Shown: piece after piece, positions 4,347 through 53,672 of the stretch | Position numbering within the stretch: the first letter of the stretch is position 1 | Layout of the letters: every line of letters starts with the position of its first letter | Program-made: the position numbers and the translations under genes | The notes under the pieces: model-generated | Database searches by the model: none | Told to the model about the DNA's origin: nothing | The model's input: the letters and a program-made list of their open reading frames with translations, nothing else | Assembly: GCA_947650285.1 (NCBI GenBank) | Contig: CANTFL010001490.1 | Coordinates: forward strand, 372,001 to 436,000 | DNA: 64,000 bases | Origin: Hyaloperonospora brassicae | Lineage: Eukaryota; Oomycota; Peronosporomycetes; Peronosporales; Peronosporaceae | Direction of reading: 5' to 3'

Positions 4347-7121
4347 TTACGACAGAGGGAACACTACCACTGGAAACTGGGGGTGCGTGGAAAAGTCAAA
4401 CTCGATCGGCGTCGCGGCTCCTTGCGCGACCTTCTTCGACTTGCCACCGCCTGTAGTCTGGCGCCGTTGGGCGAGACGAACGCTGTTGGCAATGGACACC
4501 TTGAGGAGCGCCTGCAGCTCCATACCACGGACGAGCTTCTTGCCGGTTGCAGTAGCAATCGTGTTGAATCCTTCTTTGTCGCTCAGCAGCTCCTCGGCAT
4601 GTGCTCGAGCTGTCTTGAAACACTCCTCGACTGACTTGTAGATGAGGTCCAGCTCGTAGATAGAGAAGTCGCTATTCTCGTTAAAGTCCACGTACGTCAG
4701 TGCAGCAGGGTATTGGAGTTTCTGGAACGGCGCAAAGCGATGCTGGAATCGAATCGTAAACGTGCTGTACATGGGAGACTTGGCCTCCACCAGCCCCTCG
4801 CGTTCGAGTGCGTTGAACAGCTGGAAGTACGCCCGCATCAGACTGCGCATCAATTCCGTATACTTGATCTCACGGAGAAACCGAGCCCTTGTGCAGTCAA
4901 CGGATTGGCGCATAATATCCGAGGACTCGACGATGGCTGCCCCAACGCCATTGTGGTGCTTCTTGTGCTTTGTCTTCGACTTCTTCGACGTTTTACTCGT
5001 CGCAGAGCTAGCTTGCGATGCCAGGGGTGTAACAATCTTCGGTTTGCACTGCTCGGTTGCCGGGCGTTGTGGCATGAGCTGACTCATCTTCTCGACAAAC
5101 GTCCACGTCACGTTCAGATTTTGGAGACGTGAGCCTTCCAAGTAATCCAGGTACCTGTATCCGGTCATGTCATTGATCGGTAAGAACAAACATCCGCACA
5201 CAAAGCAATGCGCACACGTACCAGTACGCGGTTCCAAACTCTGAGGGCGCATATAGTTCCAGCTCCAGCCCCAACACCACGTATTGAGTCATGAGTTGCA
5301 CCGATTCCTCGAGAGTCCAAGCCGTGAAGTATCGCGGGTTTGCAGCTTTCTATGCAACGTCGTCAGCGTAAGCACATTCAACGAATACACGCGAGCCAAT
5401 CAAGAACAGGAGCGTACCGGGATGCTCATCTCCATCATAAACCTCTCGTCTACGGCAGCAGCTTCTGCCTGAAGTATGCTCCACTCATCCAATAAATATT
5501 CGATTCGCGCACGCTGTCGTGATCGGTTGTGCAAATAAACCTTGAGCGACTCGTACATAGTCTCAATGCACCGCGATGAATACAGCACGCCTTCTTGCGT
5601 CGAGAGCAGCACGGAAGGAACTCCATTCATCACCATGGCTGCCGACAGCCAATCCATGAAGCTGTATTTGCCATAAACTTTGCTGTCAGCGTACAGGAAA
5701 AGCTAGATTAGATTTGAAAACAAGTCAAATGTAAGATGGTTGGCAGTACACAAACGGCATTTGGAAGCACATACCAGTACGTAAGAGCGCGCCACGATTG
5801 AGGGACGCTGCCTGGAAAACTCGATCAAGAAAATGCGCAAGTCTTCCATGCACGTCCATCCAGTAGGAGAGCAGCCAGTCACCAACTCTTCCAGCACTTT
5901 TTTCATCTGACCCAACGCCTCGTCGATCGAGGGCACCTTGATATCGCGCGGTGGTGCGCCGAAGAGAAGGAAACGGCTGATACTCGAATCAAAGCCGATC
6001 GGCTTTCCACTGAAGCACTCTACGTCGAGCTCGAGCCTCTCGGTGGACAACTCCCCGACCAATTCATGAGCACGATGGAAACCATCCCTCGCATGCTGCA
6101 GATCCAAACCGTTCTCTGCTCTGCCCAAACCCGCATAGGTAGCAAGCAATTCCCTTCGCAGCCGAACTCGTCGAATGAAGGCTTCGCACGTCAAGGCACC
6201 AACTCGGGGATTCGGACACAGCGGTTCATACCCAGACGGACTAGGTCGTTTGCTGCTGTTTGAACATACGCTACTTGTTCTTTTGTTGTGCTTCTTCTTT
6301 GATGCTTTTTTCGGCAAGACAGCTTTGTGCTGCTCAACGAGGGCCTCCAGCCGTTCCTGTGTTACTTGTAGCACCGTATCCAGCGTATCAACAGATACCC
6401 GCGTCAGGACTCCGGCGTTGAAACCACTTCCGGGCGAAAAGTCTTCTTCCTCGTATATATCCGCGCGTAGAGCAGCGTCACGGATAAGATCCGCAGTCTT
6501 CAGCGTAGCGAGGATCATCGCACACATGACAAGCAGCAACGTGTCTTTTGCCGAGTCGCCTACGTTGCTCTCGATAACATCGCGCACGTCTGCGTCCGTT
6601 GCCACCACACTTTCCAACGGCGAGACAAGCTGCGACCAAAGAGCATTCAGCGGGTCCCGGTGCAAGTACACACTCGTCAGCAGCGACTGTGCCAATGGCA
6701 AACCGGTCAGCCACCCCGTCTCGCAGCAGAACAACTCATCCAGTGTGGCCAGCACGTCACGAGCCGACGAAAACTCCAACAGCACCGATTTGTTTTCCAG
6801 TCGAGCAGAAACGGACTGTAACGGGGCTCCATCAACCAGCATCCCCGAGTCCATCTTCGGGTCCATGAGCTCCAGTGCCGACATGCAGTCAAAGAGCTTA
6901 AAGTCGTCTTCGTGGATCAGCTGTCCGACCTTCAGCTCCTTTGCTGCTGCACTTATCAGCTGTCAAGTACCCCGATGCAACATGAGAAATGCCCCACCAT
7001 CTCAGCATCACCAACCAAACCAAAGCCTCTCACCTGCGTGACATCTCGCCAGCCCGCGTCAACCGGCGAGTACTGCAGCTTCAGCTTCGCTTCTATCTCT
7101 TCACGGATCTCCCCCGAGTCA
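4347..7121 (-). CDS. NAA35: N-terminal acetyltransferase C (NatC) auxiliary subunit, Mak10/NAA35 family
   Basis: A multi-exon minus-strand gene; NatC acetylates nascent N-termini that begin Met-hydrophobic. Exons inferred: up to 7034 (ending EAKLKLQYSPVDAGWRDVTQ), 6959-5775, 5702-5418, 5349-5222 and 5154-4347. Introns are GT-AG and 67-74 bp (6960-7033, 5703-5774, 5350-5417, 5155-5221), all keeping frame, and predict about 830 residues, somewhat longer than animal homologues. The family signature ALELMDPKMDSGM lies just after HEDDFKLFDC. The last exon has a Lys-rich insert (SKTSKKSKTKHKKHH) and the conserved C-terminal part. The first coding exon is unresolved: the frame upstream of 7121 meets a stop without an ATG, so a short 5' exon probably lies further upstream. 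A CTGCAG acceptor at 7122 is one candidate boundary. Confidence 0.9.
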
Positions 7122-8311
7122 CTGCAGTCCGAGAGCGTTGCAGCAGAACATCAAAGAAGACAGCAACAAAGTCGTTAACCCCACACAGCTGTGGATGATA
7201 ACTACCACCACTTTGTAGCCATGTGATCGGCTTTTTCAATGCCATCGCACCTCATTGTAACCTCTTTCGTGCTTGTAGCAGGTGTAGAGAGAGAGAGAGA
7301 GATAGAGAGACAGCTGTGGGTACACCTGTCGAGCTTATCGGGATGTGGTGAAAGGAGAGGGATGGTAGGAAATGGGGAGGAAAGCGGGCTATCCTACAGT
7401 CCAGGACGTCCTACAACACGAACGCAGTCGAGCCGAGGTTTTTCCCGAGCCAAGGTTGGCCTAGTTTAGGACAGGAGAGACGCACCCAACAGACAGACCA
7501 TCAAGGAGAGAGAGAACGTTCGCTTTACTAGTATACAACTATACGCTTTATCGCTGAACCCCAAAGCACGCACAGCTGCAGCCAAACCGGACCTACAGAT
7601 ACGCCGAGAAACCTACATGCCACACACGCACAATCGAATCAATGAGCGCGAGTCTACTTCAGCCCGTGACTATGTTTTCTTGTGTCGAACAACACCTTTG
7701 CCCTCGCTTTCCCCGGCCGGCTCGCTCCCTTGCACTCTTTGTCGTACCAGGCGCACTGCCCTCTCTTCTCGCCTCCCCCGCCTTCACCTTCGCATCATCA
7801 CCACTCATTACCCTCACTTGTTCCTTTCAGGCGCCGCTTCCACCACACACATCTTGCAGCGGCCAAGCGATCCCCCGTCTCTCCACTTTCGTCGTCACAC
7901 CAGTAACCGTTTCGTCCCATGACACCTCGACGCACTCAGCCAGCACACCCCATCCATGGAAGGATGTAGAGCTTCAAGCTTCCTGCTTTGTCCGCTTCTT
8001 CACTCGCGACGATGACGCATCCGCAGTCAAGTTGGCTTCGCCCTTCCGTTTAGCTCCTGTAAGAGTCCGTCGCTACCGAAGGCAACACACATAATTACAG
8101 CTTCTGTTAAAACAGAACAGAGATAGATAGACACATAAGTCGAACCACCTCATTGAACGACATGCCCTAAGAAACAACACGCAGTACACACACAGGCACA
8201 CAACCACTCCTCTTTCTACCAGGCACCCTGCACCTCTATACACGCTAGCAGCACTGCACAGCTGAAGCGGGGAGGATGCAAGCAACCAGCTTTACCACCA
8301 CCTGCAAGCTA
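7122..8311. other. intergenic region between NAA35 and CK2 beta
   Basis: About 1.2 kb lies between the 5' side of NAA35 and the 3' side of CK2 beta, both minus. It contains a GA microsatellite at 7286-7312, pyrimidine-rich stretches around 7690-7900 and a CA/ACAC-rich tract near 8185-8205. Several plus-strand open frames (up to 150 codons) have low-complexity Pro/Ser/His composition and resemble no family, so I treat them as non-coding. It probably holds NAA35's missing first exon and promoter. Confidence 0.5.
7286..7312. repeat. GA microsatellite
   Basis: A run of GA dinucleotides interrupted once by GATA, upstream of NAA35 on the opposite strand. Confidence 0.9.
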
Positions 8312-11056: not shown

Positions 11057-11562
11057 GAGTAAATATAACACGCAGTCACTTACTACTGCGCGATATGTCC
11101 CTATCTTAAACGGTAAACGCACTCATGCGTACATTTTCATCAATATATCTTGGCCAGGGCGGTATTAAATGGGCAAAGTTTGCTGGGATCTCTACTGTCT
11201 CGAAGACGGTATACAATCCAATAGTACCATACCAAGATCCGGCCATCGGCAGTGGCAACGACATCCGAGTTTCTACGTGCTCACAGTCACGAGTCATTTG
11301 TAGCCGGGCCCCCAACGATTTACACGAGTCGAGAGCCTCAATTCGTCGCGGACTTTGCCGAAGATTTCTACTCGCCGCTAACGTGGAGATACTTCTGCAA
11401 GCTTGGAACAAACTTCGCGCGTGGCAGGAGGCACGCAAGTCGAAAAGCTTTCAATTGAACGTTCGAGTATTGCGTGCAAATTGTGGTATGACTTGCACGA
11501 GTCGCCGACGTTACAGCTTGGAGCGTGGTCGAAAGAGAAAGACACAGCGCTTCGACGGGTGG
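11057..11562 (-). pseudogene. decayed coding-like segment left of the Gypsy insertion
   Basis: On the minus strand, two overlapping frames give protein-like text: one with cysteine-containing LERSIESFSTCVPPATREVC, the next with SLPLPMAGSWYGTIGLYTVF. They are broken by stops and frame changes. The segment is immediately interrupted by the Gypsy element; the other flank (19,554-20,155) also carries minus-strand protein-like frames. I infer, without certainty, that one older gene lay here. No family is recognised. Confidence 0.3.
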
Positions 11563-11953
11563 TGTAACGGGGCACACCCTTGCGTGAACTTAACGCAAGG
11601 GTTTCGGTGCCCCGACAGACGTACACGTGGCAAGCGAGGAAGCGTAGGTAAGGTAAAAGCAGAACTGTTATATTAATATAATTAAGTCTTTTAACTACTG
11701 TCTCTCTGTTTGACTTAACTTAATTATGTTAATATAACTGAGTGTATGGTGACGTCTCGTCACCACTCATTGCGCGCGTCTTGCGGCGATTGGTGGGTTG
11801 ATATCATCAAGATATCAACCAATGAACAGACCCTTTGGTCGACCCTTCAATATCACCACTTTGGTGATATATTTCAAAGAATATTCAACTTCATATTCTT
11901 TATTGTCACTTTCCTTAAAGTGACAATTTCATGTAACGGGCTGCCCCGTTACA
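11563..11953 (-). repeat. 3' LTR of Gypsy copy 1
   Basis: 391 bp, TG...CA ends. Successive perfect stems are visible, such as arms CCTTGCGT/ACGCAAGG, GTTGATATC/GATATCAAC, TGTCACTTT/AAAGTGACA and the terminal TGTAACGGG/CCCGTTACA (11,932-11,953). It differs from the 5' LTR at two sites near its right end. Confidence 0.97.
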
Positions 11954-11969
11954 TCACCCCCCCCCTTAA
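11954..11969 (-). promoter_or_regulatory. polypurine tract, Gypsy copy 1
   Basis: On the minus strand the sequence directly before the 3' LTR is TTAAGGGGGGGGGTGA, with nine consecutive G. That is the expected position and composition for the plus-strand DNA primer. Copy 2 has the same tract with six G. Confidence 0.85.
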
Positions 11970-12086
11970 CTGATAGTCACCGCGTGACTATCGAAAATAT
12001 GGAGGCCACCCGTTGGCCACCATTGGGACAGGGAGCACTTGTTGGGTCCGTTCCATTCACTTTCCGCTTGACCTCGCATAGTTAAC

Positions 12087-12704
12087 ATGTCTATGCGAGG
12101 TGACTCAAGACCTACACAGCCCGGTGCTGTGACAGCCTCTGCGGCAGACGATTCGTCGTCTGCTGCTCCTTCTGTGCCTGCAGCAACAGGTGCTGCAGGT
12201 GCACGCGGCACATCACCGCGTGCGCATGATGACCTCGACGTAGAGGTCATCTACTCTGGCGAGTCAGACGTGTCTGACTCGGGCAATGCGCCAGAGGCGT
12301 CTCGCTCACCGGCGACGCCTCAGTGTTCGCCAAGGCCACTGCCGAACGAACGGACTCGTGATTTGCATCACAGTCTGTTCGGCAGTGATGACGATGATCA
12401 GGGCGGTGAGGAATATTATTCCTTACCACCACCGGCTCGTGCGTCTTCGCAAGAGCGTGATGAAGATGGCGTGAGCCGTCGTCAATCTGGGAGCCGTGGT
12501 ACCGACAAGGGTACCTCTGTGAAGCGTGATGAGTCGAAGCCGTGGCGTTTGCCCGAACGGCTCATTAATACCTTGTCTCACGAGACAAGCCAACACCATC
12601 GAATACCCTTATTCGATGCGACTGAGCATCACGGCTTGAGTTTTAGCGCGAAGAACTTTCGCGCTGAGGAAGATTTTTATCTCGATGTCTTTCTTAGACA
12701 TTGA
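12087..12704 (+). CDS. antisense ORF, part A, Gypsy copy 1
   Basis: A 205-codon frame on the strand opposite gag-pol, between the 3' LTR and the pol stop. It starts MSMRGDSRPTQPG and has Ala/Ser-rich and acidic parts (EVIYSGESDVSDSG, SLFGSDDDD) and a basic C-terminal third. Against copy 2 the two length differences are multiples of three, and by hand count about 17 of 36 base differences fall at third codon positions. It stops at TGA 12,702, but the same frame resumes after a second stop at 12,738. No family is recognised; an accessory protein is possible. Confidence 0.55.
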   Translation: MSMRGDSRPTQPGAVTASAADDSSSAAPSVPAATGAAGARGTSPRAHDDLDVEVIYSGESDVSDSGNAPEASRSPATPQCSPRPLPNERTRDLHHSLFGSDDDDQGGEEYYSLPPPARASSQERDEDGVSRRQSGSRGTDKGTSVKRDESKPWRLPERLINTLSHETSQHHRIPLFDATEHHGLSFSAKNFRAEEDFYLDVFLRH

Positions 12705-12743
12705 TGGTACAACAGCAACCAAAAGCGTGACAAAGCATAGCTT

Positions 12744-13694
12744 TTGGCTGCGTGGAACGCGTTTGTTCAAAACGTAAAGAATTTTGGACGAGAAGGGTGG
12801 CTTAAGAAACTTGAGGCGACACGCCTCAGGTTCGAAAGGCGAACGCCAACCGGTGCTAGGTACCGGTTGCACTGTTTGTCGAGTGAGGCAGGCATTCCTT
12901 GCCTCACACGGGGAGACCCTTGTGCGAGTTGTGTTGACAACTCGCAGCGTGCACATAGGGATGTGTATTCCCTAAATTTGCCCTGGGGAAGGGCACACAT
13001 CTCGGCTGCGATGCGTGACGCGATTGCTAGCTTGCAATCCGTCTACAAGCGCCTAGGGCGCGTGTTTACCGATGGGCCACAGGACTTATCGGATGGGTCT
13101 CGTCATACTGGCGGACGAGACCTTCAACATCCATCAACAGCTGAGAGCGGGGCTCCCAGCTGTTCCAAGAGGGTGGATACCCCCGCCACTGGACGAGGTA
13201 GCTCGTCCTTGATCCTGAATCGTCACGGTGATTCAAGATACGCTCCACTAGAAAGCGTTGATCACCGTGAGCATCCACCAAAGGATGTGGTGGAGGAGGA
13301 AAGACCTCCTCCAGATGATTCGGTTCACCATCTCGACCCTTACGAGATGAATCACGCAATCGATGAATTGCGCGATGACTTGAAGCACGAGCGCGACCGG
13401 CGCCACGCTTTGACTGATACCGTGCGGAAGAAACACAAGGATCGCGGGGCTGATCGGGCTAGAGATCGCGCCGATTATGCCACAGCGCAGCTTCAGGTCG
13501 AGCGGGATGTCCGCTCCCTATTCGGCGAGCTGGCGACAGCTCACGGGGAGATATCTCGGTTGAGTTCCGAGGTATCATATCTGCGCGACCAGACGGATTG
13601 TCTGGAGCGCGACCACAAGAACTTGATGGATGTTCTTGAACGTGGGGGCTATCTTCATCGGAAGAAGAAGGCTCGTACTGACAGTACGGCCTGA
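12744..13694 (+). CDS. antisense ORF, part B, coiled-coil protein, Gypsy copy 1
   Basis: About 316 codons in the same frame as part A, separated by two stops (TGA 12,702 and TAG 12,738) shared by both copies. The first half contains a [19 protein letters not shown] segment whose Cys/His spacing resembles a small zinc-binding motif. The second half (about residues 200-300) is a charged helical stretch with heptad-like Leu spacing, ending in basic HRKKKARTD. From 13,066 on it overlaps antisense to the integrase tail and chromodomain, so both strands are open. It may be a real accessory gene or partly a shadow of pol; the part outside the overlap favours the former. Confidence 0.5.
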
Positions 13695-14298
13695 GCCTCC
13701 CCACGTAAAACGTAGGATGCGTGCGCATCCTACGTGGCAATTCGAATGTGTATGCATTGCCCTTGCGATGCAACACTCGAAATGGCCCAATGTACTTCGG
13801 CATTAGTTTACTACTGCCGAAACTAGTGACTGCATGTCCAGGTAAGTTTACCGTAGACAGTAGTACTAGGTCGTTAACCTTAAATGAAAGAACATTTGCT
13901 CTTCCATTCTTGTCTGCGTTCCGTTTCTGACGGTCCACCGCATTTGCGATGGAGTCCTGAACGAAACGGACTACCGCTTCTCGAGTCAGCAGGAAGTTCT
14001 CTGCTGACTCGTTGTTTTGTCTTTCAGTGCGCTTCGTGCGCACTGCTAAGAGATTGGTCTCTTCTTCAGCGAGGTTGTCTTCTTCCTCGCTGACATAATC
14101 GTTGACAATGCTGAATATAACAGCATCGTCATCATCATCCGAGTCAATAATAGCGTCATCGCTATTATTGAGGTGATCTTCTTCATCTATGTCGACTTGA
14201 TCGACATCGGCATCATACGTGACGACGTTAGCGTCGACACGTGATGAGCAAGAGCCAAAACGGTTTTTGCTCGAGCGAGTCCCTCCCCCCTTATCCAA
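13066..14298 (-). pseudogene. pol: integrase C-terminal region plus chromodomain, copy 1
   Basis: The integrase tail is recognisable by KVNDLVLLSTVNLPGH and KYIGPFRVLHRKGNAYTFEL. An acidic Asp/Glu-rich patch precedes it and a Ser/Arg/Pro-rich linker follows. The final domain is a chromodomain ([20 protein letters not shown], then [15 protein letters not shown]), which targets chromovirus integration to marked chromatin. A TAG (TCG in copy 2) near 13,460 breaks copy 1. In copy 2 the same region is one open frame of 410 codons. The last 630 bp overlap an open frame on the other strand. Confidence 0.88.
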
Positions 14299-15179
14299 GA
14301 GTCACGCTCTATAAGGGTGGGCACTCGTGGATGGCGTAAGCCATTCACGTAAAACGGTGTGTGCTGTGTGGAAGCATGCACCGAATTATTGATGGCGAAT
14401 TCCACCATGGGTAGGAATTCGCTCCGACTCGGAAACGATTGGACGTATCCTCGAATAATCTCTTCGAGGACACGGTTCGCACGTTCCGTCTGACCATCTG
14501 TTTCGGGATGGTCAGAAGTGGACATCTTCAATCGTGTTCCGAGAGTACGGAACACGGTTTGCCAAAATGCCGCCGTGAACCGAGGGTCACGGTCGGATAC
14601 GAGTTCACGGGGTCACCCGTGGAGTCTAAAGACCGTGTCTAGAAAGACACGGGCACAACCTTGAGCCTTGATCGACTCAGAGACAGCAGCAAGATGGACC
14701 ATCTTGCTGAACCGATCAACAAACACAATAATACCATTATTTTTGTGAGCGTCTTCGGGAAAACCGAAGACGAAGTCCATTTAAACGGACTGCCAGTACT
14801 CTGTCGGAACAGACAGAGGCTGCAATGGCGCACGGGATGAAGGACTAGGCTTCACCCGTTGACAAACCTCGCAAGCACGTATGTACTTGCAGAACAAACT
14901 GATACTGGCGGGGCCAGTAAAAGTCACGACTTACCGTGAGGTAAGTCTTTTCTCTACCACGATGGCCGCTTGTTGGGGCATCGTGACACTCATACATGAT
15001 GCGTAAACGCAAATCATGATGAGCGGGTACGACGACGCGAGGCGTGTCGTCGGCAACAGCTGTATAGTACAGCAATCCGTTGCGTGTACTATACCGATCC
15101 GATGAGGATCGGTACAAAGCCGGTAAATCCCTCATGGATTTACTGGATGGATTCACCAGATGATCCATCAATCGCAGAA
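14187..15179 (-). pseudogene. pol: integrase core of Gypsy pol, copy 1, broken
   Basis: The N-terminal zinc-binding part (HHDLRLRIMYECHDAPTSGH ... then C..C of the HHCC finger) is followed by a +1 frameshift near 14,890. The catalytic core shows the first Asp in MDFVFGF, the second in VSDRDPRFT and the Glu region ERANRVLEEIIRGY. A copy-specific TAA (TCA in copy 2) sits just before the first catalytic Asp. Integrase inserts the cDNA and here would have made the 5-bp TSD. Confidence 0.88.
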
Positions 15180-15759
15180 GATCATTATCTTCCGCGTATG
15201 CCTTTCGTACGTCGTCAAGTAAACTTGACGACGGGACACTGACTGACAGTGTCGCAACAGTGAGCTTATCCTCACTGTTGAATTCTGCGACCGGCTCGAA
15301 ATCGGGCCGGCGCGAAAGCGCATCAGCGACGACATTGAGTCGTCATGGTTTACACTCCACGGAGAAGTTATACTCCGCGAAGAAAGACAGCCACCTCGCC
15401 ATTCTTTGCGAGATGTGTGGGCTGTTTACGGTCGTGCGTAATGACGCATGGTCCTTATAGACAACAAACTGTCTATCCTTCAAGAGATAGACGCGAAACT
15501 TAGCCAGTGCGTACTTCATGGCAAGGAGTTCCTTGTCATGCACTGGATAATTACGCTCAGCTGCTTGCAGCTGACGCGACTGATAACAGATGACGCGCTC
15601 CGCGCCATCTGCATCGAACTGCATTAACGCACAGCCGATTGCGAATTCGCTGGCGTCACATACCACATGAAATGGTCTGTCCTGATCTGCAATCGCCAAG
15701 ATCGGCGATTGTATCAAGCTTTGCTTGATACCCTCAAAGGAACGCTGGCACTCAGCGTT
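15180..15759 (-). pseudogene. pol: RNase H domain of Gypsy pol, copy 1, broken
   Basis: It carries the RNase H motifs: VVCDASEFAIGCALMQFD (first catalytic Asp), HDKELLAMKYAL (Glu) and VYKDHASLR (Asp). The phrase SQRMARWLSFFAEYNF precedes a TGA around 15,340 that is Gly in copy 2. The frame then continues with ADALSRRPDFEP. It removes RNA from the RNA:DNA hybrid during reverse transcription. Confidence 0.88.
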
Positions 15760-17521
15760 TCATGACCACTTGACATTTTTCTTGAGCAGACAAGAAAGAT
15801 GAACAGTCATCTCGGCGTAGTTGCGCGAGTACTTGTGCAAGTACGCCGCAAGACCAAGGAACTTCCTTAGTCCCTTGACATCGACTGGCACTGGCCAGTC
15901 GGTGATCGCCTTGATCTTTTCGGTATCAGGGCGTACGCCGTGTTTACCCACGATGCACCCAAGAAGTGGTATTTCGCTAGCCGCGAATATACACTTCTTG
16001 AGGTTGGCGTACAACTTATACTTGCGCATAAGTTAAAGAACCTGACGAACGTGAGTTCTGTGAACTTCAACGTCCGTCTTTCCGTCCATAGCCCGGCTAT
16101 GGACGAACACATCGTCGAAGTAACTCGGTGCGAAGTCTCGCACCGGTCTCAACAGATTTGTAACACATCGGTTGAATGTTGCAGGGGCATTACTCAGCCC
16201 CTGTGGCATCACTAGCCACTCCCACAGCATCCCGCTGGGGGTACTCACTGCCGTGAACGGGACGTCCCGTTCACGCATCAGGATCTGATAGAATCCATCC
16301 ATCAGATCCATGGACGAAAAGATGATACTCTTTGACATACCATCTATGATTACGTCCTTCCTCGGTATCGGCGTCGGAGCCGGTACCGTTGCAGCATTCA
16401 ACTTGTTGAATGCGTGCACTATCCGCCATCCTCCTGTGGCCTTTCGCACACAGAAGGTCGGAGAGCTGTGAGGGGATGTTGATTCCCTCACATGGCCCGC
16501 TGCTAAGCGATCGGCAGCTATTGTCGATCGCTAGTACTTGTTCACGAGGCAGTGGCCACTGCTTCATGATACAGTACTTCGAGCCCGGTTTGAGCTCGAT
16601 CTCGTGTCGAGTGCCTTTGTCCTTAGGCAACTCGCAAGGTACGGATTCAGGGAACACATCCCTGAATTCGATCAAATCCTTATACAAAGGATTTGCCTGA
16701 AGTGACTCCCAGGATTGGGACGCGTATCGCTCAATCCGAGTCTTCTCATCGAGGACACTTTCGTCCATCGATGAGCTGCTGAGAACCCGTTCGTTCTCAG
16801 CAAATACTGTTGCCGACCGAATGTCGGTCACATACTCATCCTCTGTGACGAGTATGCAGATCTGCTTGACTTTGCCACTACGCAGATCACGCAAGAACCG
16901 TTTCGGTTCTATCGTTGGCAACTGAGTTATCTCTGAAGTTAACTTCAGAGGCACAATCAGATCAAGCGTATAAGCGCCTACGCTTGATCCGTCATTAACC
17001 AAGACGTTCAACGTCTCGGTTTCTTCCTGGGAACTTGCTTCCACAGGTTGCTGAGGGCCTAATCCCTCAGCAAGCGACTCTTGAGTAATTCCTTCCTCAA
17101 GTACGTGGGGACTTATTCCCTCGACGTCTTCCGACTGTGGATGTGCAACCACAGTCAGGAACCGATCCTCTACGGTCGACTCTCCAGTCGACCTAGGATT
17201 TTCATTTTGCCCCTTGGGGGCAACAGATTTCTTTTTTCTAAGATGCTGCCCGCTAGGCATGCATCCATGTCCCGGTCCACTCGACTTATTCGAGTGGTGG
17301 ACCTTCGGCGTAGCCTGTACATCTGTACAGCCGCCGGGAGCTTGCTCCACATTGTAGTAATCAACTACACTGTGATCTTGTGCAGTCGTGCTAACGACCG
17401 TACCGCAAGTGAGGCCATCGCACTCACTCGCAGAACATCCACACGCTTGTGGACGCTCCAAGATGTTCATCAGATGGCCATCTGATGAACAAGCGGCAGG
17501 CATCTTCACGGATCGATGCTG
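15760..17521 (-). pseudogene. pol: reverse transcriptase domain of Gypsy pol, copy 1, broken
   Basis: The protease-RT linker and RT start run in one frame to about 16,510 (EFRDVFPESVPCELPKDKGT). A frameshift near 16,510-16,530 moves to the frame holding SSPTFCVRKATGGWRIVHAF, LSNAPATFNRCV and the catalytic YFDD (Tyr codon 16,122-16,120). A copy-specific TAA at 16,033 follows, then the thumb region (KIKAITDWPVPVDVKGLRKF) to a TGA at about 15,760 that again sits at an expected Trp. The frameshift and that TGA are shared with copy 2. The domain order and spacing are otherwise normal for Ty3/Gypsy. Confidence 0.9.
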
Positions 17522-17977
17522 TCAGCTCACCCTTGGCTCGTACTTTGTGAGCCAAGGTAATCCCAGGATGACATCAAATTTGTCATCCAGATCTAGTACG
17601 ATGAAGTCATAATAGTACTGTTCGCCCTCTAACGTGTAGTGGATTCCTACTACACGTTTCTCAACGGTTATCGATGCGCCTGTGGTAAGGCAAACCGTCA
17701 TCCTCGTTAGGAGTATGTCGCGCTCAACGAACTTGAGCCTACGATCATCTAGTGACTGGCGTCGAACAAAGTTGTTCGACGCTCCACAGTCTACTAGGGC
17801 ACGAAGCGACAAATCATTTGTCGCTTCCAACTTCAAGGTGATGAGCGAAACGTCATCACCAGGTGCAGAGACACACAATGATTGTGTATCTGGAGCAACT
17901 TTCGTCAAGAGATTTGCAAATTCTCTTGAGTTTGCTGGATCAGTAGGGCGCTCCGCCCCTACTGACCCCGACCATTT
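17522..17977 (-). CDS. pol: aspartic protease domain of Gypsy pol, copy 1
   Basis: Open in the same frame as gag, immediately after the gag TAA. The retropepsin active site is DCGAS in LRALVDCGASNNFVRR, and a FDVILGLPWL segment matches the second conserved part of the fold. The frame stops at TGA 17,522-17,524, where the next residues suggest a Trp codon (TGG to TGA) shared by copy 2. The protein sequence of this domain is identical in copy 2. It would mature the Gag-Pol polyprotein. Confidence 0.85.
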   Translation of the reverse strand, partial: KWSGSVGAERPTDPANSREFANLLTKVAPDTQSLCVSAPGDDVSLITLKLEATNDLSLRALVDCGASNNFVRRQSLDDRRLKFVERDILLTRMTVCLTTGASITVEKRVVGIHYTLEGEQYYYDFIVLDLDDKFDVILGLPWLTKYEPRVS

Positions 17978-19114
17978 TTATGATGGTCCGTCTCGCTGTT
18001 GCGGCTTCGCAACAGCGCTGGACCCACGCCCATTGCCCTTTCTGGCGAATGGTCGTCCATTTCGCTCAGTACTGTTTGGTAGTGGGCGTGGAGCACTACA
18101 CTCGTATGCGTAGTGCCCTAACTTCTGACAGCGATTGCACCTCTGCAATCGCTTGTTGTTTGTAGAGCGAGGTCTCTCGCTCTCAACATAGCAGAGGTCC
18201 ATTGGTTTTGGACCTCCGATCTCTTGTCGTCTCGGTGGACGGTAAGAGTTTGAGCTAGCATGAGCCTGTCTCATGCTAAAGTCTTCCTGTTCCGCGGCTG
18301 ATATCGTATCTTCCAGCGTATTCAGCTCAAGGCGGAACAGATGGCTCCTGACGGGCCCTTCTGCGAGCCCTTGCATGAACACCGTAATCAACGTGTGTTC
18401 ATGAACTGGGTTGGCAGTTATACTACTCGCAAGGAGTCGTATATGTTGTGCGTAAGCGTGCACATCACGCTTACCCTGCTTGAGTTTCAGGAGCTCTGAA
18501 CGAGCCCTGAACTCAGCACGTGGCGGCTCAAACGTTTGTCTGAGCCGGGACTTGAAGTCATCTAGCGACCTAAACACGTTTGGGTCGCTACTCTCGAGTC
18601 CCTGGGACCAAGTTTTGGCACGCCCTGCCAAGTGGGTCTGAGCAAATGTGAGTTTCATTTGCTCATCTTCGACGCGACGAGCCCTTAGGGCTCTGTCGAG
18701 TTCGACAAACCACAGTAACAGGGAGTCCTCCGGGACTCCAGTGTACTTGGAGATGTCGACTTTCATGACTTCGGGACGACGCGCATGCGCTGTCTCGCCC
18801 ACAGCAGCATGGAATTGCTGCTGTCTCAACAGCTCTGTCTGTTGAGCACCGAGTTCTCTCAACTGCTCGACCTGTTGAGAGCCTTGCTGGTGAAGCAATG
18901 CTACTTTCTCCCTTTCGGCGACAAGTTCATTTTGAATGAACTTGGCGATAGCGGCATGTTGTTGGTCTCTGTCTAGAGACTCCAACATGGTGCTAACGAC
19001 GAGTTCGCCTACGGTAGAACTCATTCGTTCTACCGCACCCCATTCGATGTCACTCAAATGGGTAAACCCTTCACGCGTGGCGTGAAAGGTCTCTTCATCA
19101 TCCAACATGTTCAT
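17978..19114 (-). CDS. gag: Gag of Gypsy copy 1, intact frame
   Basis: A 378-residue capsid/nucleocapsid protein. The N-terminal third is helical and Glu/Gln-rich (LLHQQGSQQVEQLRELGAQQ). A retrotransposon-gag capsid region follows (KYTGVPEDSLLLWFVELDRA ... FAQTHLAGRAKTW), and a zinc knuckle CNRCQKLGHYAYEC lies at about residues 323-336 before a basic tail. It ends in TAA at 17,978-17,980, but the protease continues in the same frame right after, in both element copies. The ATG lies 44 bp inside the 5' LTR. This is the only long intact gag-pol domain in copy 1. In copy 2 the same gene has a 1-base insertion. Confidence 0.93.
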   Translation of the reverse strand: MNMLDDEETFHATREGFTHLSDIEWGAVERMSSTVGELVVSTMLESLDRDQQHAAIAKFIQNELVAEREKVALLHQQGSQQVEQLRELGAQQTELLRQQQFHAAVGETAHARRPEVMKVDISKYTGVPEDSLLLWFVELDRALRARRVEDEQMKLTFAQTHLAGRAKTWSQGLESSDPNVFRSLDDFKSRLRQTFEPPRAEFRARSELLKLKQGKRDVHAYAQHIRLLASSITANPVHEHTLITVFMQGLAEGPVRSHLFRLELNTLEDTISAAEQEDFSMRQAHASSNSYRPPRRQEIGGPKPMDLCYVESERPRSTNNKRLQRCNRCQKLGHYAYECSAPRPLPNSTERNGRPFARKGNGRGSSAVAKPQQRDGPS

Positions 19115-19140
19115 GTTGGATGTTGTGGTCTTTGGAAGGA

Positions 19141-19156
19141 CTACTAAGTGCTACCA
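19141..19156 (-). promoter_or_regulatory. candidate primer binding site, Gypsy copy 1
   Basis: Two bases inside the 5' LTR the minus strand reads TGGTAGCACTTAGTAG. The TGG start complements a tRNA CCA end, as expected for minus-strand priming. The matching tRNA was not identified. Copy 2 differs by one base. Confidence 0.6.
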
Positions 19157-19158
19157 GG

Positions 19159-19549
19159 TGTAACGGGGCACACCCTTGCGTGAACTTAACGCAAGGGTTT
19201 CGGTGCCCCGACAGACGTACACGTGGCAAGCGAGGAAGCGTAGGTAAGGTAAAAGCAGAACTGTTATATTAATATAATTAAGTCTTTTAACTACTGTCTC
19301 TCTGTTTGACTTAACTTAATTATGTTAATATAACTGAGTGTATGGTGACGTCTCGTCACCACTCATTGCGCGCGTCTTGCGGCGATTGGTGGGTTGATAT
19401 CATCAAGATATCAACCAATGAACAGACCCTTTGGTCGACCCTTCAATATCACCACTTTGGTGATATATTTCAAAAAATATTCAACTTCATATTCTTTATT
19501 GTCACTTTCCTTAAAGTGACAATTTTATGTAACGGGCTGCCCCGTTACA
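19159..19549 (-). repeat. 5' LTR of Gypsy copy 1
   Basis: 391 bp, matching 11,563-11,953 except for two transitions (CAAAGAATATT versus CAAAAAATATT, and CAATTTCATG versus CAATTTTATG). This LTR would carry the promoter for gag-pol. Confidence 0.97.
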
Positions 19550-19553
19550 GGTG

Positions 19554-20155
19554 GCCACGGGACAAGAAGACCTGAATCTATGCTGCTGAACTTTGAGACG
19601 CTTTCGAGTCTCTTTTCCGTTTGACACGCTAAGATTCAGTGTTCGTCTGTCGCTTGCCGTATGTTGAGACAAGCGAGAAACCTCATGCAATACACCACTA
19701 TGATGTGCGACCTGTGACGACGGGCACCCCGCAACGCAATGCTGTCGCTCGCAAGAATAGACTAGTGAGGCACAAGAGGTGGCGTTTTGCACGCAACAGC
19801 CGGATTTGCGTGACGCCGGGACAGGTACACTAAGACGTATGTCAACATGCATGGACTTGGCACGTGTCCGCCAAATCAATCTCTTGAGGTACGCCAAACA
19901 ATACACCATGTTTCACAGGAATTTCAGCTTTTTGAATGACGTCAAATGACCGTTGCGCCGCTGCAGCATCTTCAGCACCTTCGCTACTCCACAAAACCAA
20001 GTCGACCGAGAGTCAATGCGATGCCAATGAGCACAACAGCGACTATCCACAGCGCGTGACTGAACTTGAACGTTTTTTTCGGCTGCAGCGGACGCTGCTT
20101 AAAAACAGCTTTGTTCTCGGCAGCCTCGGTCTTACCCAGCAGACGGCCATCTTAG
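19554..20155 (-). pseudogene. decayed coding-like segment right of the Gypsy insertion
   Basis: On the minus strand a segment beginning near 20,155 reads KTEAAENKAVFKQRPLQPKK followed by a hydrophobic helix (ALWIVAVVLIGIALTLGRLG), as in a type II membrane protein. After a frame change it continues with AAAAQRSFDVIQKAEIPVKH, then a Cys-rich frame up to the Gypsy insertion. A TAA precedes it and the right edge abuts a gag scrap, so the 5' part is missing or spliced. I cannot name a family. Confidence 0.4.
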
Positions 20156-20189
20156 CGTATTTTCCCCTCCTTCCTCCTTGGTATCAACA

Positions 20190-20326
20190 AATCTGATTGT
20201 TGAGCACCGAGTTATTTGAATTGCTCAGCCTGTTGAGAGCCTTGCTGGTGAATCAAGGATACTTTCTCTCGTTCGGCGCCAAGTTCATGTTAAATAAAGC
20301 TGGCGATAGCGGCATGTTGTTGGTCA
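20190..20326 (-). pseudogene. gag fragment of a related Gypsy element
   Basis: About 137 bp closely matches the N-terminal gag region of copy 1 (about 18,835-18,972), including GTTGAGCACCGAGTT and GGCGATAGCGGCATGTTGTT, with scattered changes. No other internal sequence adjoins it. Confidence 0.75.
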
Positions 20327-45689: not shown

Positions 45690-46080
45690 TGTAACGGGGC
45701 ACACCCTTGCGTAACTTAACGCAAGGGATTTGGGTGCCCCGACGGACGTACACGTGGCAAGCGAGGAAGCGTAGGTAGGGTAAAAGTAGAACTGTTATAT
45801 TAATATAATTAAGTCTTTTAACTACTGTCTCTTCGTTTGACTTAACTTAATTATGCTAATATAACTGCATGTATGGTGACGTCTCGTCACCACTCATTGC
45901 GCGCGTCTTGCGGCGATTGGTGGGTTGATATCATCACGATATCAACCAATGAACAGACCCTTTGTTCGACCGTTCAATATCACCACTTTGGTGATATTGT
46001 TTAAAGAATATCCATCTTTATATTCTTTATTGTCACTTTCCTTAAAGTGACAATTTCATGTAACGGGATGCCCCGTTACA
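45690..46080 (-). repeat. 3' LTR of Gypsy copy 2
   Basis: 391 bp, TGTAACGGGG...CCCCGTTACA. Relative to copy 1 several differences fall in hairpin loops while the arms are kept (GTTGATATC/GATATCAAC with loop ATCAC instead of ATCAA). Confidence 0.97.
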
Positions 46081-46093
46081 TCACCCCCCTTAA
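46081..46093 (-). promoter_or_regulatory. polypurine tract, Gypsy copy 2
   Basis: The minus strand reads TTAAGGGGGGTGA directly before the 3' LTR; six G against nine in copy 1. Confidence 0.8.
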
Positions 46094-46210
46094 CTGATAG
46101 TCACCGTGTGACTATCGAAAATATGGAGGCCACCCGTTGGCCACCATTGGTCCAGGGAGCACTTGTTGGGTCCGCTCCATTCACTTTCCGCTTGACCTCG
46201 CATAGTTAAC

Positions 46211-46711
46211 ATGTCTATGCGAGGTGACTCAAGACCCACACAGCCTGGTGCTGTGCAAGCCTCTGCGACAGACGCTTCGTCGTCTGCCTTTTCTTCGCCT
46301 GCAGCAACAGGTGCTGCAGGTGCACGCGGTATCACACCGCGTGCGCACGATGACCCTGATGTAGAGGTCATCTACTCTGGCGAGTCAGACGTGTCTGACT
46401 CGGGCAATGCTCCAGAGGCGTCTCGCTCACCGGCGACGCCTCAGTATTCGCCAAGACCACTGCCGAACGAACGGACTCGTGATTTGCATCACAGTCTGTT
46501 CGGCAGTGATGACGATGATCAGGGTGGTGAGTTCTATTCCTCACCACCGCCGGCTCGTGCGTCTTCGCACGATCGTGATGACGATGGCGCGAGCCGTCGT
46601 CAATCTGGGAGCCGTGGTACCAACAAGGGTACCACTGTGAAGCGTGATGAGTTGAAGCCGTGGCGTTTGCCCGAACAGCTCATCAATAGCCTGTCTCACG
46701 AGACAGGATAA
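46211..46711 (+). CDS. antisense ORF, part A, Gypsy copy 2
   Basis: 166 codons, the counterpart of 12,087-12,704 in copy 1, with the same acidic EVIYSGESDVSDSG and SLFGSDDDD segments. It is shortened by a TAA at 46,709 where copy 1 has CAA. Two internal length differences from copy 1 are multiples of three. Confidence 0.5.
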   Translation: MSMRGDSRPTQPGAVQASATDASSSAFSSPAATGAAGARGITPRAHDDPDVEVIYSGESDVSDSGNAPEASRSPATPQYSPRPLPNERTRDLHHSLFGSDDDDQGGEFYSSPPPARASSHDRDDDGASRRQSGSRGTNKGTTVKRDELKPWRLPEQLINSLSHETG

Positions 46712-46879
46712 CACCATCGAATACCCTTATTCGATGCAACCGAGCTTCACGGCTTGAGTTCCAGCGCGAAGAACTTTCGCGCTGAAGAAGATTTTTATCT
46801 CGATGTCTTTCTTAGACATTGATGGTACAACAGCAACCAAAAGCGTGACAAAGCATAGCTTTTGGCTGCGTGGAACGCG

Positions 46880-47812
46880 TTCGTCCAAAACGTAAAGAAT
46901 TTTGGACGAGAAGGGTGGCTCTAGAAACTTGAGGCGACACGCCTCAGGTTCGAACGGCGAACGCCAACCGGTGCTAGGTACCGATTTCATTGTTTGTCGA
47001 GTGAGGCAGGCATTCCTTGCCTCACATGGGGAGACCCTTGTGCGAGTTGTGTTGACAACTCGCAGCGTGCACATAGGGATGTGTACTCCCTAAATTCGCC
47101 CTGGGGAAGGGCACACATCTCGGCTGAGATGCGTGACGCGATTGCAAACTTGCAATCCGTCTACAAGCGCCTAGGGCGCGTGTTTACCGATGGGCCACAG
47201 GACTCATCGGATGGGTCTCGTCATACTGGCGGACGAGACCTTCAACATCCATCAACAGCTGAGAGCGGGGCTCCCAGCTGTTCCAAAAGGGTGGATACCC
47301 CCGCCACTGGACGAGGTAGCTCGTCCTTGATCCTGAATCGTCACGGTGATTCAAGATACGCTCCACTAGAAAGCGTTGATCACCGTGAGCATCCACCAAA
47401 GGATGTGGTGGAGGAGGAAAGAACTCCTCCAGATGATTCGGTTCACCATCTCGACCCTTACGAGATGGATCGCGCAATCGATGAATTGCGCGATGACTTG
47501 AAGCACAAGCGCGACCGGCGCTACGCTTTGACCGATACCGTGCGGAAGAACCGCAAGGATCACGAGGCTGATCGGGCGAGGGATCGCGCCGATTACGCCA
47601 CAGCGCAGCTTCAGGTCGAGCGGGATGTCCGCTCCCTATTCGGCGAGCTGGCGACAGCTCACGGGGAGATATCTCGGTTGAGTTCCGAGGTATCATATCT
47701 GCGCGACCAGACGGATCGTCTGGAGCGCGACCACAAGAACTTGATGGATGTTCTTGAACGTGGGGGCTATCTTCATCGGAAGAAGAAGGCTCGTACTGAC
47801 AGTACGACCTAA
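46880..47812 (+). pseudogene. antisense ORF, part B, Gypsy copy 2, broken
   Basis: Counterpart of 12,744-13,694. A TAG near 46,920 (AAG in copy 1, one base different in phase) interrupts the N-terminal part. From 46,994 the frame is open for 272 codons with the [15 protein letters not shown] motif, the charged coiled-coil and the basic HRKKKARTD end. From 47,184 it overlaps pol on the other strand. Confidence 0.5.
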
Positions 47813-49287
47813 GACTACCCACGTAAAACGTAGGATGCGTGCGCATCTTACGTGGCAATTCGAGTGTGTATGCATTGCCCTTGCAATGCAACACTCGAAA
47901 TGGCCCAATGTACTTCGGCAGTAGTTTACTACTGCCGACACTAGTGACTGCATGTCCAGGTAAGTTTACCGTAGACAGTAGTACTAGGTCGTTAACCTTA
48001 AATGAAAGAACATTTGCTCTTCCATTCTTGTCTGCGTTCCGTTTCTGACGGTCCACCGCATTTGCGATGGAGTCCTGAACGAAACGGACTACCGCTTCTC
48101 GAGTCAGCAGGAAGTTCTCTGCTGACTCTTTGTTTTGTCTGGCAGTGCGCTTCGTGCGCACTGCTAAGAGATTGCTCTCTTCTTCAGCGAGGTTGTCTTC
48201 TTCCTCGCTGACATAATCGTTGGCGATGCTAAATATACCAGCATCGTCATCATCATCCAAATCAATAATAGCGTCGTCGCTATTATTGAGATGATCTTCT
48301 TCATCGATGTCGACTTGATCGACATCGGCATCATACGTGACGACGTTTGAGTCGACACGTGATGAGCAAGAGCCAAAACGGTTTTTGCTCGAGCGAGTCC
48401 CTCCCCCCTTATCCAAGAGTCACACTCTATAAGGGTGGGCACTCGTGGATAGCGTAGGCCATTCACGTAAAACGGTGTGTGCTGTGTTGAAGCATGCACC
48501 GAATTATTGATGGCGAATTCCACCATGGGTAGGAATTCGCTCCGACTCGGAAACGAGTGGACTTATCCTCGAATAATCTCTTCGAGGACACGGTTCGCAC
48601 GTTCCGTCTAACCATCTGTTTCGGGATGGTCAGAAGTGGACATCTTCAATCGTGTTCCGAGAGTACGGAACAAGGTTTGCCAAAATGCCGCCGTGAACCG
48701 AGGGTCACGGTCGGATACGAGTTTACGGGGTAACCCGTGCAGTCTAAAGACCGTGTCTAGAAAGACACGGGCACAACCTTGATCCTTGATCGACTCAGAG
48801 ACAGCAGCAAGATGGACCATCTTGCTGAATCGGTCAACAAACACAAGAATACCATTATTCTTGTGAGCGTCTTCGGAAAACCCGAAGACGAAGTCCATTG
48901 AAACGGACTGCCAGCACTCTGTCGGAACAGGCCGAGGCTGCAATGGCGCACGGGATGAAGGACTATGCTTCACCCGTTGACAAACTTCGCAAGCACGTAT
49001 GTACTTGCGAACAAACTGATACTGGCGGGGCCAGTAAAGTCGCGACTTACCGTGAGGTAAGTCTTTTCTCTACCACGATGGCCGCTTGTTGGGGCATCGT
49101 GACACTCATACATGATGCGTAAACGCAAATCATAATGAGCGGGTACGACGACACGAGGCGTGTCGTCGGCAACAGCTGTATAGTACAGCAATCCGTTGCG
49201 TGTACTATACCAATCCGATGAGGATCGGTACAAAGCCGGTAAATCCCTCATGGATTCACTGGATGGATTCACCAGATGATCCATCAA
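47184..49287 (-). pseudogene. pol: integrase and chromodomain of Gypsy copy 2, broken
   Basis: The integrase zinc region is followed by a one-base deletion near 49,037. The core motifs MDFVFGF, VSDRDPRFT and the Glu region are present across stops. The C-terminal part is a single uninterrupted frame, 48,416-47,184, of 410 codons. It contains the acidic patch, KVNDLVLLSTVNLPGH, the Ser/Arg-rich linker and the chromodomain with [15 protein letters not shown], better preserved than in copy 1. Confidence 0.9.
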
Positions 49288-49311
49288 TCGCAGAAGATCC
49301 TTATCTTCCGC

Positions 49312-53231: not shown

Positions 53232-53257
53232 GTTGGATGTTGTGGTCCTTGGAAGGA

Positions 53258-53273
53258 CTACAAAGTGCTACCA
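53258..53273 (-). promoter_or_regulatory. candidate primer binding site, Gypsy copy 2
   Basis: The minus strand reads TGGTAGCACTTTGTAG two bases inside the 5' LTR, one base different from copy 1. Confidence 0.6.
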
Positions 53274-53275
53274 GG

Positions 53276-53667: not shown

Positions 53668-53672
53668 TTAAG

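Follow-up and report, generated by a model that had tools for sequence, protein, structure and literature searches.

The locus described here raises the question of why a retrotransposon should carry short perfect inverted repeats along its entire length, and what keeps them there. The window, a 64 kb stretch of Hyaloperonospora brassicae DNA, contains at 11563-19549 on the minus strand a Ty3/Gypsy chromovirus LTR retrotransposon (copy A). This is flanked by a 5 bp TSD (GGTGG; 11558-11562 and 19550-19554) and bounded by two 391 bp LTRs with TG..CA ends, the 5' LTR at 19159-19549 and the 3' LTR at 11563-11953 (both minus strand), which differ at two positions. Gag, with capsid and zinc knuckle (17978-19150; Retrotrans_gag 3.1e-16, Ty3_capsid 8.1e-08), is followed on the same strand by protease (17522-17977; RVP_2 3.4e-10), reverse transcriptase (16033-16530; RVT_1 6.4e-20), integrase zinc-binding (14845-15342; Integrase_H2C2 3.1e-12) and integrase C-terminal SH3-like regions (13459-14301; SH3_Tf2-1 1.4e-13). 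A second copy of the family (copy B) lies at 45690-53667, also on the minus strand, and its LTR ends were located. The domain order gag, PR-RT-RNase H-integrase and chromodomain is in pieces in the window copies and complete, unedited, in the ORF of another copy, L077, in which the open pol has a Chromo domain after the SH3-like region (7.4e-13). LTR ends, TSD length and these domains are as in oomycete Ty3/Gypsy chromoviruses, to which this element adds the hairpin tiling and an antisense ORF. The latter is present on the plus strand of copy A as two open pieces, 12072-12704 (210 aa; no Pfam match at E 0.01) and 12741-13694 (317 aa; coiled-coil-like, with only weak matches below curated cut-offs), and is a single 539-aa ORF in L077. 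Nearby genes in the window encode TPP-enzyme/ALS-like, Mak10/NAA35 and NAD kinase proteins. Protein relatives of the element occur in Peronospora, Phytophthora and others, and one query each against plasmid, viral-contig and genome-contig collections returned no DNA relatives elsewhere.

The original observation was that hairpins tile the LTRs, gag, pol and antisense region end to end, and this was borne out. With loops of 3-30, the number of perfect stems in copy A (11563-19549) is 138 for arms of 7 bp or more, 99 for 8, 63 for 9 and 35 for 10, where 20 dinucleotide shuffles give 11.8, 2.8, 0.4 and 0.2, respectively, and across 11450-19650 a set of 137 non-overlapping stems (arms at least 7, loops 3-60) covers 46% of the sequence, loops counted. 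Copy B shows tiling of the same kind (93 stems of at least 8 bp versus 3.0 in shuffles, with 46196-53700 tested). About a dozen stems of at least 7 bp had been reported for 17521-18300, where we counted 14, with 1.0 in shuffles. Likewise, all five hairpins that had been named individually were found in place, at 17803-17827 (arm 11, loop 3), 15210-15233 (arms given as 11, but 10 with loop 4 in our stem scan), 15255-15280 (arm 10, loop 6), 14144-14171 (arm 12, loop 4) and, at the LTR end, 11931-11954 (arm 10, loop 4), the last two reaching further than first described (14146-14169 and 11932-11953). When the window was divided into 64 bins of 1 kb (arms at least 8, loop at most 15), there were 5-13 stems in each of bins 12-20, 4-15 in bins 46-54, and 0-2 in the remaining 46. 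Outside both copies the window is near background, its left and right parts lying close to shuffles and the middle (20500-46000) slightly over them (stems with arms of 9 bp or more: 8, versus 2.1 in shuffles).

Preserving the encoded protein did not reproduce this density. Synonymous-codon shuffles gave 1.6 stems against 49 observed, and in L077, with 109 perfect stems (arms of 8 bp or more) over 7.6 kb, or 14.3 per kb, codon-preserving shuffles gave 0.63 in gag (16 seen), 1.62 in pol (68 seen) and 0.55 in part of the antisense ORF (18 seen), so that the real density is far higher than in either codon- or dinucleotide-preserving controls, and the equality with shuffles that would have refuted the observation does not hold. 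Folding energies, also proposed as a check, were very low; across 26 windows of 300 nt the mean z was -8.6 on the sense and -8.4 on the antisense strand, with all 26 below -4 on each strand and none above -4.3, while host stretches had z near 0. Chance, base composition or an assembly artefact is excluded by the two kinds of shuffle, by the 29 of 29 compared copies of the family at 12.9-14.6 stems per kb, and by long open frames in many copies, and we consider such an origin exceedingly improbable.

The trait had been treated as the property of one family, but sister families with their own hairpin geometry had gone unseen. Other genomic copies of the family of copies A and B (F1) have ~14 stems per kb, whereas 30 of 30 other sampled RVT_1 loci have 0-0.8; L069 and L075, distant Gypsy-type loci in this genome, show background density. 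Hairpin arms are 8-9 in sister family F2, and sister family F3 has 13-nt hairpins in which 5-bp arms enclose a 3-nt loop; spans are 24.5±2.8 nt in F1 and 21.6±2.0 nt in F2. The sister-family hairpins mostly lie at positions differing from those of F1, which shares 0 of 37 hairpin centres with F3 (1.0 expected) and 4 of 63 with F2 (1.5 expected; p=0.048 with a tolerance of 1.5 nt and 0.34 with one of 4 nt). Comparison of the antisense ORFs of F1 with those of F2 and of F3 showed no clear relationship. Beyond 10 bp the F1 arm counts fall 33:10:2, approximately as chance extension would give, and GC content declines with arm length in F1 (rho -0.32, p=0.0003), a relation not seen in F2 (rho 0.08). 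The stem excess is mainly at loops below 15, although F1 arms of at least 8 with loops of 15-40 also number 13 against 2.9 expected. Spacing is random in F1 (CV 1.06 versus 0.99), with ~40% covered, and regular spacing was sought in F1 and F3 and not found, while F2 hairpins are spaced a little more evenly than random placement would give (p=0.02). A complementarity-by-distance profile carried little signal. Hairpin arms are under-represented in the codon register that allows the fewest synonymous changes (8 of 49, where 36% would be expected; p=0.003), and F1 hairpin codons sit at residues where families without those hairpins differ from one another as well. In the open-access literature, judged from titles and abstract openings, we found no described retrotransposon family with such tiling.

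We assessed whether the stems are kept using variants among F1 copies, which are related and were picked by similarity, making the p-values that follow optimistic. At third codon positions, variants found in at least two of 29 copies were scarcer within stems than outside, whether stems were taken from copy A (6/306 versus 46/853, p=0.015), copy B (5/322 versus 47/837, p=0.002) or copy L076 (1/225 versus 45/775, p=0.0002), while singletons differed little (19/322 in stems versus 70/837 outside, p=0.18; 15/225 versus 61/775, p=0.67). Non-coding LTR sites variable in at least three of 21 copies gave 0/138 in stems and 14/254 outside (p=0.003). Transmitted variants caused 6 stem losses where 21.7±4.5 were expected, and 3 gains where 3.2 were expected. 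Among the 219 private variants, a mixture of reverse-transcription errors and later mutations, there were 50 losses (64.1±5.0 expected) and 9 gains (7.3±2.6 expected), and since these losses are also below expectation the contrast between private and transmitted variants is a matter of degree. With transmitted variants strongly depleted in stems and private ones little or not, the stems are kept during element replication, and the hairpins are apparently under purifying selection while the element replicates. Part of the coding constraint could come from correction together with protein constraint, and the LTR constraint could alternatively come from regulatory sites.

Template switching by reverse transcriptase that perfects quasi-palindromes had been suggested as one cause. 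In its developed form, the nascent strand would snap back on a short arm during reverse transcription, copy a family-specific patch of ~5, 8 or 10 nt and return, so that hairpins would arise and be repaired as a by-product, with protein-level purifying selection doing the rest. This would account for perfect Watson-Crick arms on both strands, for arm lengths that are sharply defined in each family and exceeded only about as often as chance allows, for random spacing in F1 and F3, and for absence of the trait from the other sampled families. It is also favoured by compensated pairs between families (2 of 305 for F1 versus L076; 7 of 164 for F2 versus L070) and by two loop inversions between intact arms, found on alignments in L027 and in the diverged LTR L093, which indicate strand switching or recombination at hairpins, although intramolecular recombination could also yield them. 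Small hairpin-loop inversions in chloroplast DNA likewise flip a loop between intact arms; those hairpins are isolated and are not known to form a whole-genome pattern. However, private variants are not enriched in stem-forming changes, and the balance among transmitted variants comes from suppressed losses and not from raised gains. In addition, were correction unbiased, per-site rates should be unaffected and compensated pairs should arise, yet LTR stems are depleted in variants and none of the five transmitted stem variants was compensated. We think a mutational origin unlikely, although it stays a strong rival.

The other suggested cause, selection for a folded genomic RNA, fares well as to selection, given the suppressed transmitted losses, but less clearly as to its target. 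Here, as in GORS, selection would pack the genomic RNA or mRNA into an unusually perfect structure as protection from nucleases, sensors or small RNAs. The very low folding energy fits this, as does the base composition of F1 loops, with A at 0.32 and T at 0.24 in the sense orientation. Hairpins with a single mismatch lean towards G-U over A-C in F1 copies (31 versus 26, 34 versus 24, 12 versus 6, and 24 versus 13 in one count of copy A), although another count gave 22 versus 24, and of the five transmitted stem variants four were A-C and one G-U. The two strands of L077 are equal in MFED (49.9 sense, 49.5 antisense) and in G-U fraction (0.052 on each). We had taken these strand tests as evidence against sense RNA, a use withdrawn after the phages MS2, Qbeta, GA, SP, PP7, AP205 and PRR1 were run through identical code, with the odds moving towards sense RNA. 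Pooled, these seven gave G-U 52 versus A-C 36, a small bias roughly like that of F1, and their sense MFED (19.4-30.1%) exceeded antisense in six of seven; with so small and uneven a sense bias in folded RNA genomes, the strand tests have little power. The phages resemble F1 as strongly folded coding genomes but differ in having 0.2-1.7 perfect stems of at least 8 bp per kb, against 14.3 in L077, and in a sense-strand G-U use of 0.72-0.83 of the shuffled rate, against 0.43, which disfavours plain folded RNA.

PMC7642675 describes coronavirus genomes with stem-loops throughout, pairings not conserved between relatives, a suggested shielding from host recognition, and an MFED of 15% in SARS-CoV-2 and 23.4% in the highest vertebrate RNA virus. 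F1 is alike in genome-scale ordered structure, with folding energy far below shuffles along the genome and pairings in F1 not conserved in F2 or F3, and this also favours selection on sense RNA. It differs in that the carrier is an LTR retrotransposon, in an MFED of ~45-50%, above those values although obtained by somewhat different methods, and in perfect stems whose arm length is set by the family, where that paper describes duplexes as typically interrupted. Selection on RNA alone also leaves unexplained why F3 keeps to arms of 5 and a loop of 3. Folded sense RNA is to our mind an unlikely, if again strong, rival.

Two further targets of selection were weighed. Hairpins could fold the minus-strand cDNA bared by RNase H digestion, protecting it or preventing misannealing. 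In duplex DNA, G-T offers hardly any advantage over A-C as a pair, which would match the near-equal G-U and A-C counts, and the strictly short loops would suit folding during synthesis; antisense MFED also exceeds sense in eight of ten loci, several of which are copies of one family. However, the strands of full-length L077 are equal, and we know of no need for cDNA hairpin folding in Ty3/Gypsy elements; we consider this reading improbable. Alternatively, by analogy with the dispersed packaging signals proposed for RNA phages, each hairpin might be a low-affinity site for the Gag of its own family. This would explain a geometry that varies by family and perhaps the loose base preference that F2 arms have in common. 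In packaging hairpins the loop is usually the recognised part, yet no loop motif was apparent in F1, F2 or F3 by eye and in base counts, both strands are equally structured, and RNA phages themselves lack such perfect stems. We give this idea little credence.

The explanation that we tentatively prefer, though at less than even odds, is that the tiling is held by purifying selection with self-complementarity itself as the target and escape from small-RNA silencing as the benefit. The whole Ty3/Gypsy genome, LTRs, gag, pol and antisense gene alike, would have been shaped into close-set, perfect Watson-Crick, short-loop hairpins, which purifying selection during replication would maintain. The selected property would probably be self-complementarity of ~13-28 nt stretches up to a stability threshold, which predicts the lower GC of longer arms in F1, and the benefit, of which we are less sure, may be evasion of host silencing, since guide and target would both be self-folded and arms of ~10 bp would be too short for Dicer. 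What speaks for the explanation is a stem density beyond every shuffle control, a geometry particular to each family, the much tighter constraint on transmitted than on private variants, strands alike in structure, stems placed at variable residues, the fall-off of arms past 10 bp and the avoidance of the least free codon register. According to PMC3804510, Phytophthora small RNAs fall into 25/26-nt and 21-nt classes, the longer mainly from transposable elements; that F1 and F2 spans are close to these sizes is a numerical coincidence and no test. Against a shield stand the 13-nt hairpins of F3, which it does not predict, and the 30 sampled loci that lack the trait, when many families persist without it; random F1 spacing with ~40% coverage and the missing arm-GC relation in F2 weigh against the explanation as a whole. 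None-the-less, a shield against host small RNAs remains the leading cause, with sense-RNA folding and hairpin-templated mutation as its strong rivals. Going further, and with more doubt, we raise the possibility that a clade put nearly its whole genome under a second code, local self-complementarity, superimposed on the genes of either strand, and apparently did so on three occasions, each with its own hairpin size, such that any short piece from either strand would fold on itself, host small RNAs would fail, and protein sequence at free sites would be steered by pairing.

The hairpin tiling suggests that an entire mobile genome can be shaped in a manner not described before. If true, the pairing of neighbouring bases would constrain such a genome along its full length, coding and non-coding parts alike, to a degree beyond the seven phage genomes compared, and variation at third positions and in amino acids could not be read as neutral in these elements. 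Three related families with differing hairpin size in one host, with hairpin-free elements alongside, form a natural test system for small-RNA escape by self-folding, for extreme genome-wide RNA structure in an LTR element, and for a reverse transcriptase that writes its own hairpins, and each of these answers would be new.

The element at 11563-19549 (minus strand; copy A) is itself an ordinary Ty3/Gypsy chromovirus, recognised by its LTR pair, TSD and domain matches. Its LTRs are 391 bp each with two differences between the pair, the TSD is GGTGG, and the domain pieces comprise gag with a zinc knuckle, protease, reverse transcriptase (RT) and integrase, in reading frames that are partly broken. 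A second copy (copy B) was delimited by its LTR ends at 45690-53667. Elsewhere in the 100.6-Mb genome many copies have open frames of 1339-1666 aa across RT, and in L077, a full-length copy of this family (F1), the open frame over RT ends in a chromodomain. The family has at least 150 copies, since all 150 RT places scored genome-wide match the query at 96-100%. Oomycetes including Peronospora and Phytophthora supplied the named protein relatives. Just outside the element, at 20181-20325, lies a sequence 85% identical to a 145-nt stretch of gag (18823-18967), 1.36 kb from it.

The original observation was that perfect short inverted repeats tile this element, and the excess was borne out, with all five example stems present. 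At minimum arm lengths of 7, 8, 9 and 10 bp, with loops of 3-30 nt, copy A contains 138, 99, 63 and 35 stems, and 20 dinucleotide shuffles give 11.8, 2.8, 0.4 and 0.2; for copy B (46196-53700 tested) the figures are 135, 93, 59 and 33, with 12.0, 3.0, 0.8 and 0.2 in shuffles. The window's left and right portions were near their own shuffles in stem count, and its middle had a slight excess at ≥9 bp (8 vs 2.1). Folding z is near 0 in host stretches; in the element its mean over 26 windows, each 300 nt long, is -8.6 on the sense strand and -8.4 on the antisense strand, with no window exceeding -4.3. The excess likewise survived codon-preserving controls, with 49 stems in the 3.5 kb coding sequence of one F1 copy (L010) compared with 1.6 (maximum 6) in 200 synonymous-codon shuffles. 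In L077, gag, pol and part of the antisense ORF have 16, 68 and 18 stems where such shuffles average 0.63, 1.62 and 0.55, and the F1 LTR, outside the gag and pol frames, holds 8 stems against 0.22 expected.

Across the genome, stem density over the RT region is 12.9-14.6 per kb in the 29 F1 copies compared, the top hits of a search. In all 30 other RT loci, taken as best matches to the Pfam RVT_1 model, it is 0-0.79; four of these loci were scanned, and all four are LINE-like. Eight further Gypsy-type loci were chosen for diversity. Density was 14.3 per kb in L073 (95.8% DNA identity to F1), 8.7 in L076 (92.9%; F1b), 5.0 and 2.0 in L071 and L070 (57% aa), 0.3 each in L072 and L074 (46% and 55% aa), yet with raised MFED, and 0 and 0.3 in the distant L069 and L075 (25-27% aa).

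We compared hairpin geometry in full-length examples of F1 (L077) and two related families, F2 (L078) and F3 (L079). F1 has 35, 37 and 33 arms of 8, 9 and 10 bp (1.4, 0.1 and 0 in shuffles), with 10, 2 and 0 of 11, 12 and 13 bp, roughly the level of chance extension. F2 has 33 and 16 arms of 8 and 9 bp, then 1 and 1 at the next lengths, and F3 has 5-bp arms around a loop of exactly 3 nt (63 vs 4.9 in shuffles), its stem counts dropping about fourfold per extra pair (196, 43, 11, 4, 1). Arm sequences are diverse, with a preference in F2 for an outer G and an inner C, and in F3 for a C-G closing pair. In F1, GC falls as arm length rises (rho -0.32, p=0.0003), a relation absent from F2, and mean hairpin energy goes from -10.0 at arm 7 to about -14.5 at arms 10-12; F2 reaches -12.5 with shorter, GC-richer arms. 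F3 hairpins are far weaker (-4.4), so one common stability threshold fails to cover this family.

In the compared stretches, 21 of 33 F1 centres coincide with one of 22 L076 hairpins (0.8 expected), and 5 of 21 F2 centres with one of 13 in L070 (0.25 expected). Between families, coincidence was 0/37 for F1 at F3 hairpins (1.0 expected), 1/23 for F2 at F3 (0.6 expected) and 4/63 for F1 at F2 (1.5 expected, p=0.048; 5 vs 4.0 in a wider window, p=0.34). One F2 hairpin is compensated relative to L070 by a synonymous and a Lys/Arg change, and at this site F1 holds a wholly different hairpin. The register that sets third codon positions opposite one another is under-used by the arms (8/49 vs 36% expected, p=0.003). 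F1-F2 identity is 0.398 at F1 stem codons vs 0.526, and as F2-F3 identity is equally low there (0.389 vs 0.506), F1 stems are sited at naturally variable residues.

F2 and F3 also have an excess of 8-mers directly repeated within 30 nt (37 vs 5.75 in F2; 26 vs 3.5 in F3, partly from tandem repeats), with none in F1 (4 vs 4.5). The F3 LTR (L079 751-1229 and 8022-8501) has internal repeats with 46-bp matches, and 13 hairpins of 5-3-5 form against 0.49 expected. Each of the three hairpin families analysed at full length has a long antisense ORF near its 3' end. In copy A it is in two plus-strand pieces (12072-12704 and 12741-13694) between pol and the 3' LTR, and it is unbroken in L077 (539 aa, 6052-7668, minus strand), with counterparts in F2 (465 aa, L078 6850-8244, minus) and F3 (472 aa, L079 6616-8031, minus). 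The F1 and F2 proteins have weak zipper or coiled-coil matches, none of which were found for F3, and the F1 protein has no clear similarity to those of F2 and F3.

A mutational origin of the hairpins remains a strong rival and accounts well for their shape and spacing; constraint on variants, which it explains poorly, was assessed in the 29 F1 copies using stems defined in outgroup copies. At third codon positions, variants in at least two copies occurred at 5/322 stem vs 47/837 outside sites for copy B stems (Fisher p=0.002), 1/225 vs 45/775 for L076 stems (p=0.0002) and 6/306 vs 46/853 for copy A stems (p=0.015), p-values that, like those of the other variant tests, are indicative because the sample consists of related copies picked for their similarity. 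Third-position singletons were at 19/322 vs 70/837 (p=0.18), 15/225 vs 61/775 (p=0.67) and 18/306 vs 71/853, respectively. In the LTR, minor bases in at least 3 of 21 copies were at 0/138 stem vs 14/254 outside sites (p=0.003), with a smaller gap at a threshold of 2 (7/138 vs 21/254) and singletons at 14/138 vs 39/254 (p=0.17). Among 219 private variants, eight of which come from a single loop inversion, 9 lengthen a stem to at least 7 bp (7.3±2.6 expected) and 50 shorten one (64.1±5.0 expected), a mild depletion. The 73 transmitted variants include 3 that lengthen a stem (3.2 expected) and 6 that shorten one (21.7±4.5 expected), which indicates that high stem density is kept mainly through suppressed losses and not raised gains. 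Two loops are inverted between intact arms: an 8-nt loop of L027 (3.5-kb alignment, columns 62-69) and a 7-nt loop of L093, a diverged LTR (6 nt within the span scored), each read as the reverse complement of the corresponding loop in other copies. The hairpins therefore act physically at times, which may be a consequence and not a cause.

The best-fitting reading is selection for perfect local self-complementarity, and our leading explanation, a possible one, adds escape from small-RNA silencing as the most likely benefit. Dicer substrates have a length requirement; with arms near 10 bp, both guide and target would fold without becoming such a substrate. According to PMC3804510, Phytophthora small RNAs form 21- and 25/26-nt classes, the latter chiefly from transposable elements, and inverted repeats are strong sources of them. 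F3 geometry, random hairpin spacing and incomplete hairpin cover speak against small-RNA escape.

Selection on folding of the sense RNA also remains a strong rival, rated level with the mutational one and below the leading explanation. In L077, MFED is 49.9 vs 49.5 by strand and predicted G-U use 0.052 on each. Its non-overlapping hairpins with one inner mismatch comprise 22 G-U, 24 A-C and 18 other (1.5, 1.6 and 6.8 in shuffles), or 31, 26 and 23 with arms from 7 bp; G-U vs A-C counts are 34 vs 24 in copy A (24 vs 13 in a cruder count) and 12 vs 6 in L076. Outside stems neither kind of transition predominates (private 37 vs 41; transmitted 18 vs 15), and the five transmitted stem variants are four A-C and one G-U. 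Seven RNA phages (MS2, Qbeta, GA, SP, PP7, AP205 and PRR1) served as positive controls. In all except Qbeta, MFED is higher in sense, by 1.1-8.2 points; G-U use normalised to shuffles is likewise higher in sense in all except GA, by 0.01-0.13. Their pooled mismatched hairpins are 52 G-U vs 36 A-C, with SP supplying 15 vs 2. As this sense bias is small and uneven, the strand test is weak, and we dropped strand equality as an argument against sense-RNA selection, which became a separate rival. Our confidence was lowered both in the leading explanation and in the broader reading given below. What sets the element apart from the phages is perfection of the stems (14.3 perfect stems per kb vs 0.2-1.7), with G-U use at 0.43 of the shuffled rate vs 0.72-0.83.

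The nearest described property is GORS (PMC7642675), which shares a folding excess and non-conserved pairings and differs in its interrupted stems, in the family-fixed arm lengths of our element and in its carrier. Our search of the open-access literature found no retrotransposon with such hairpin tiling. Novelty belongs to the trait and not the element, and rests on quantised perfect geometry and not the strand test; if sense-RNA folding is true, the trait would be less new and closer to an already known kind of property. In a broader and more doubtful reading, this would be a retrotransposon clade with nearly its whole genome under a self-complementarity code, making host small RNAs fail.
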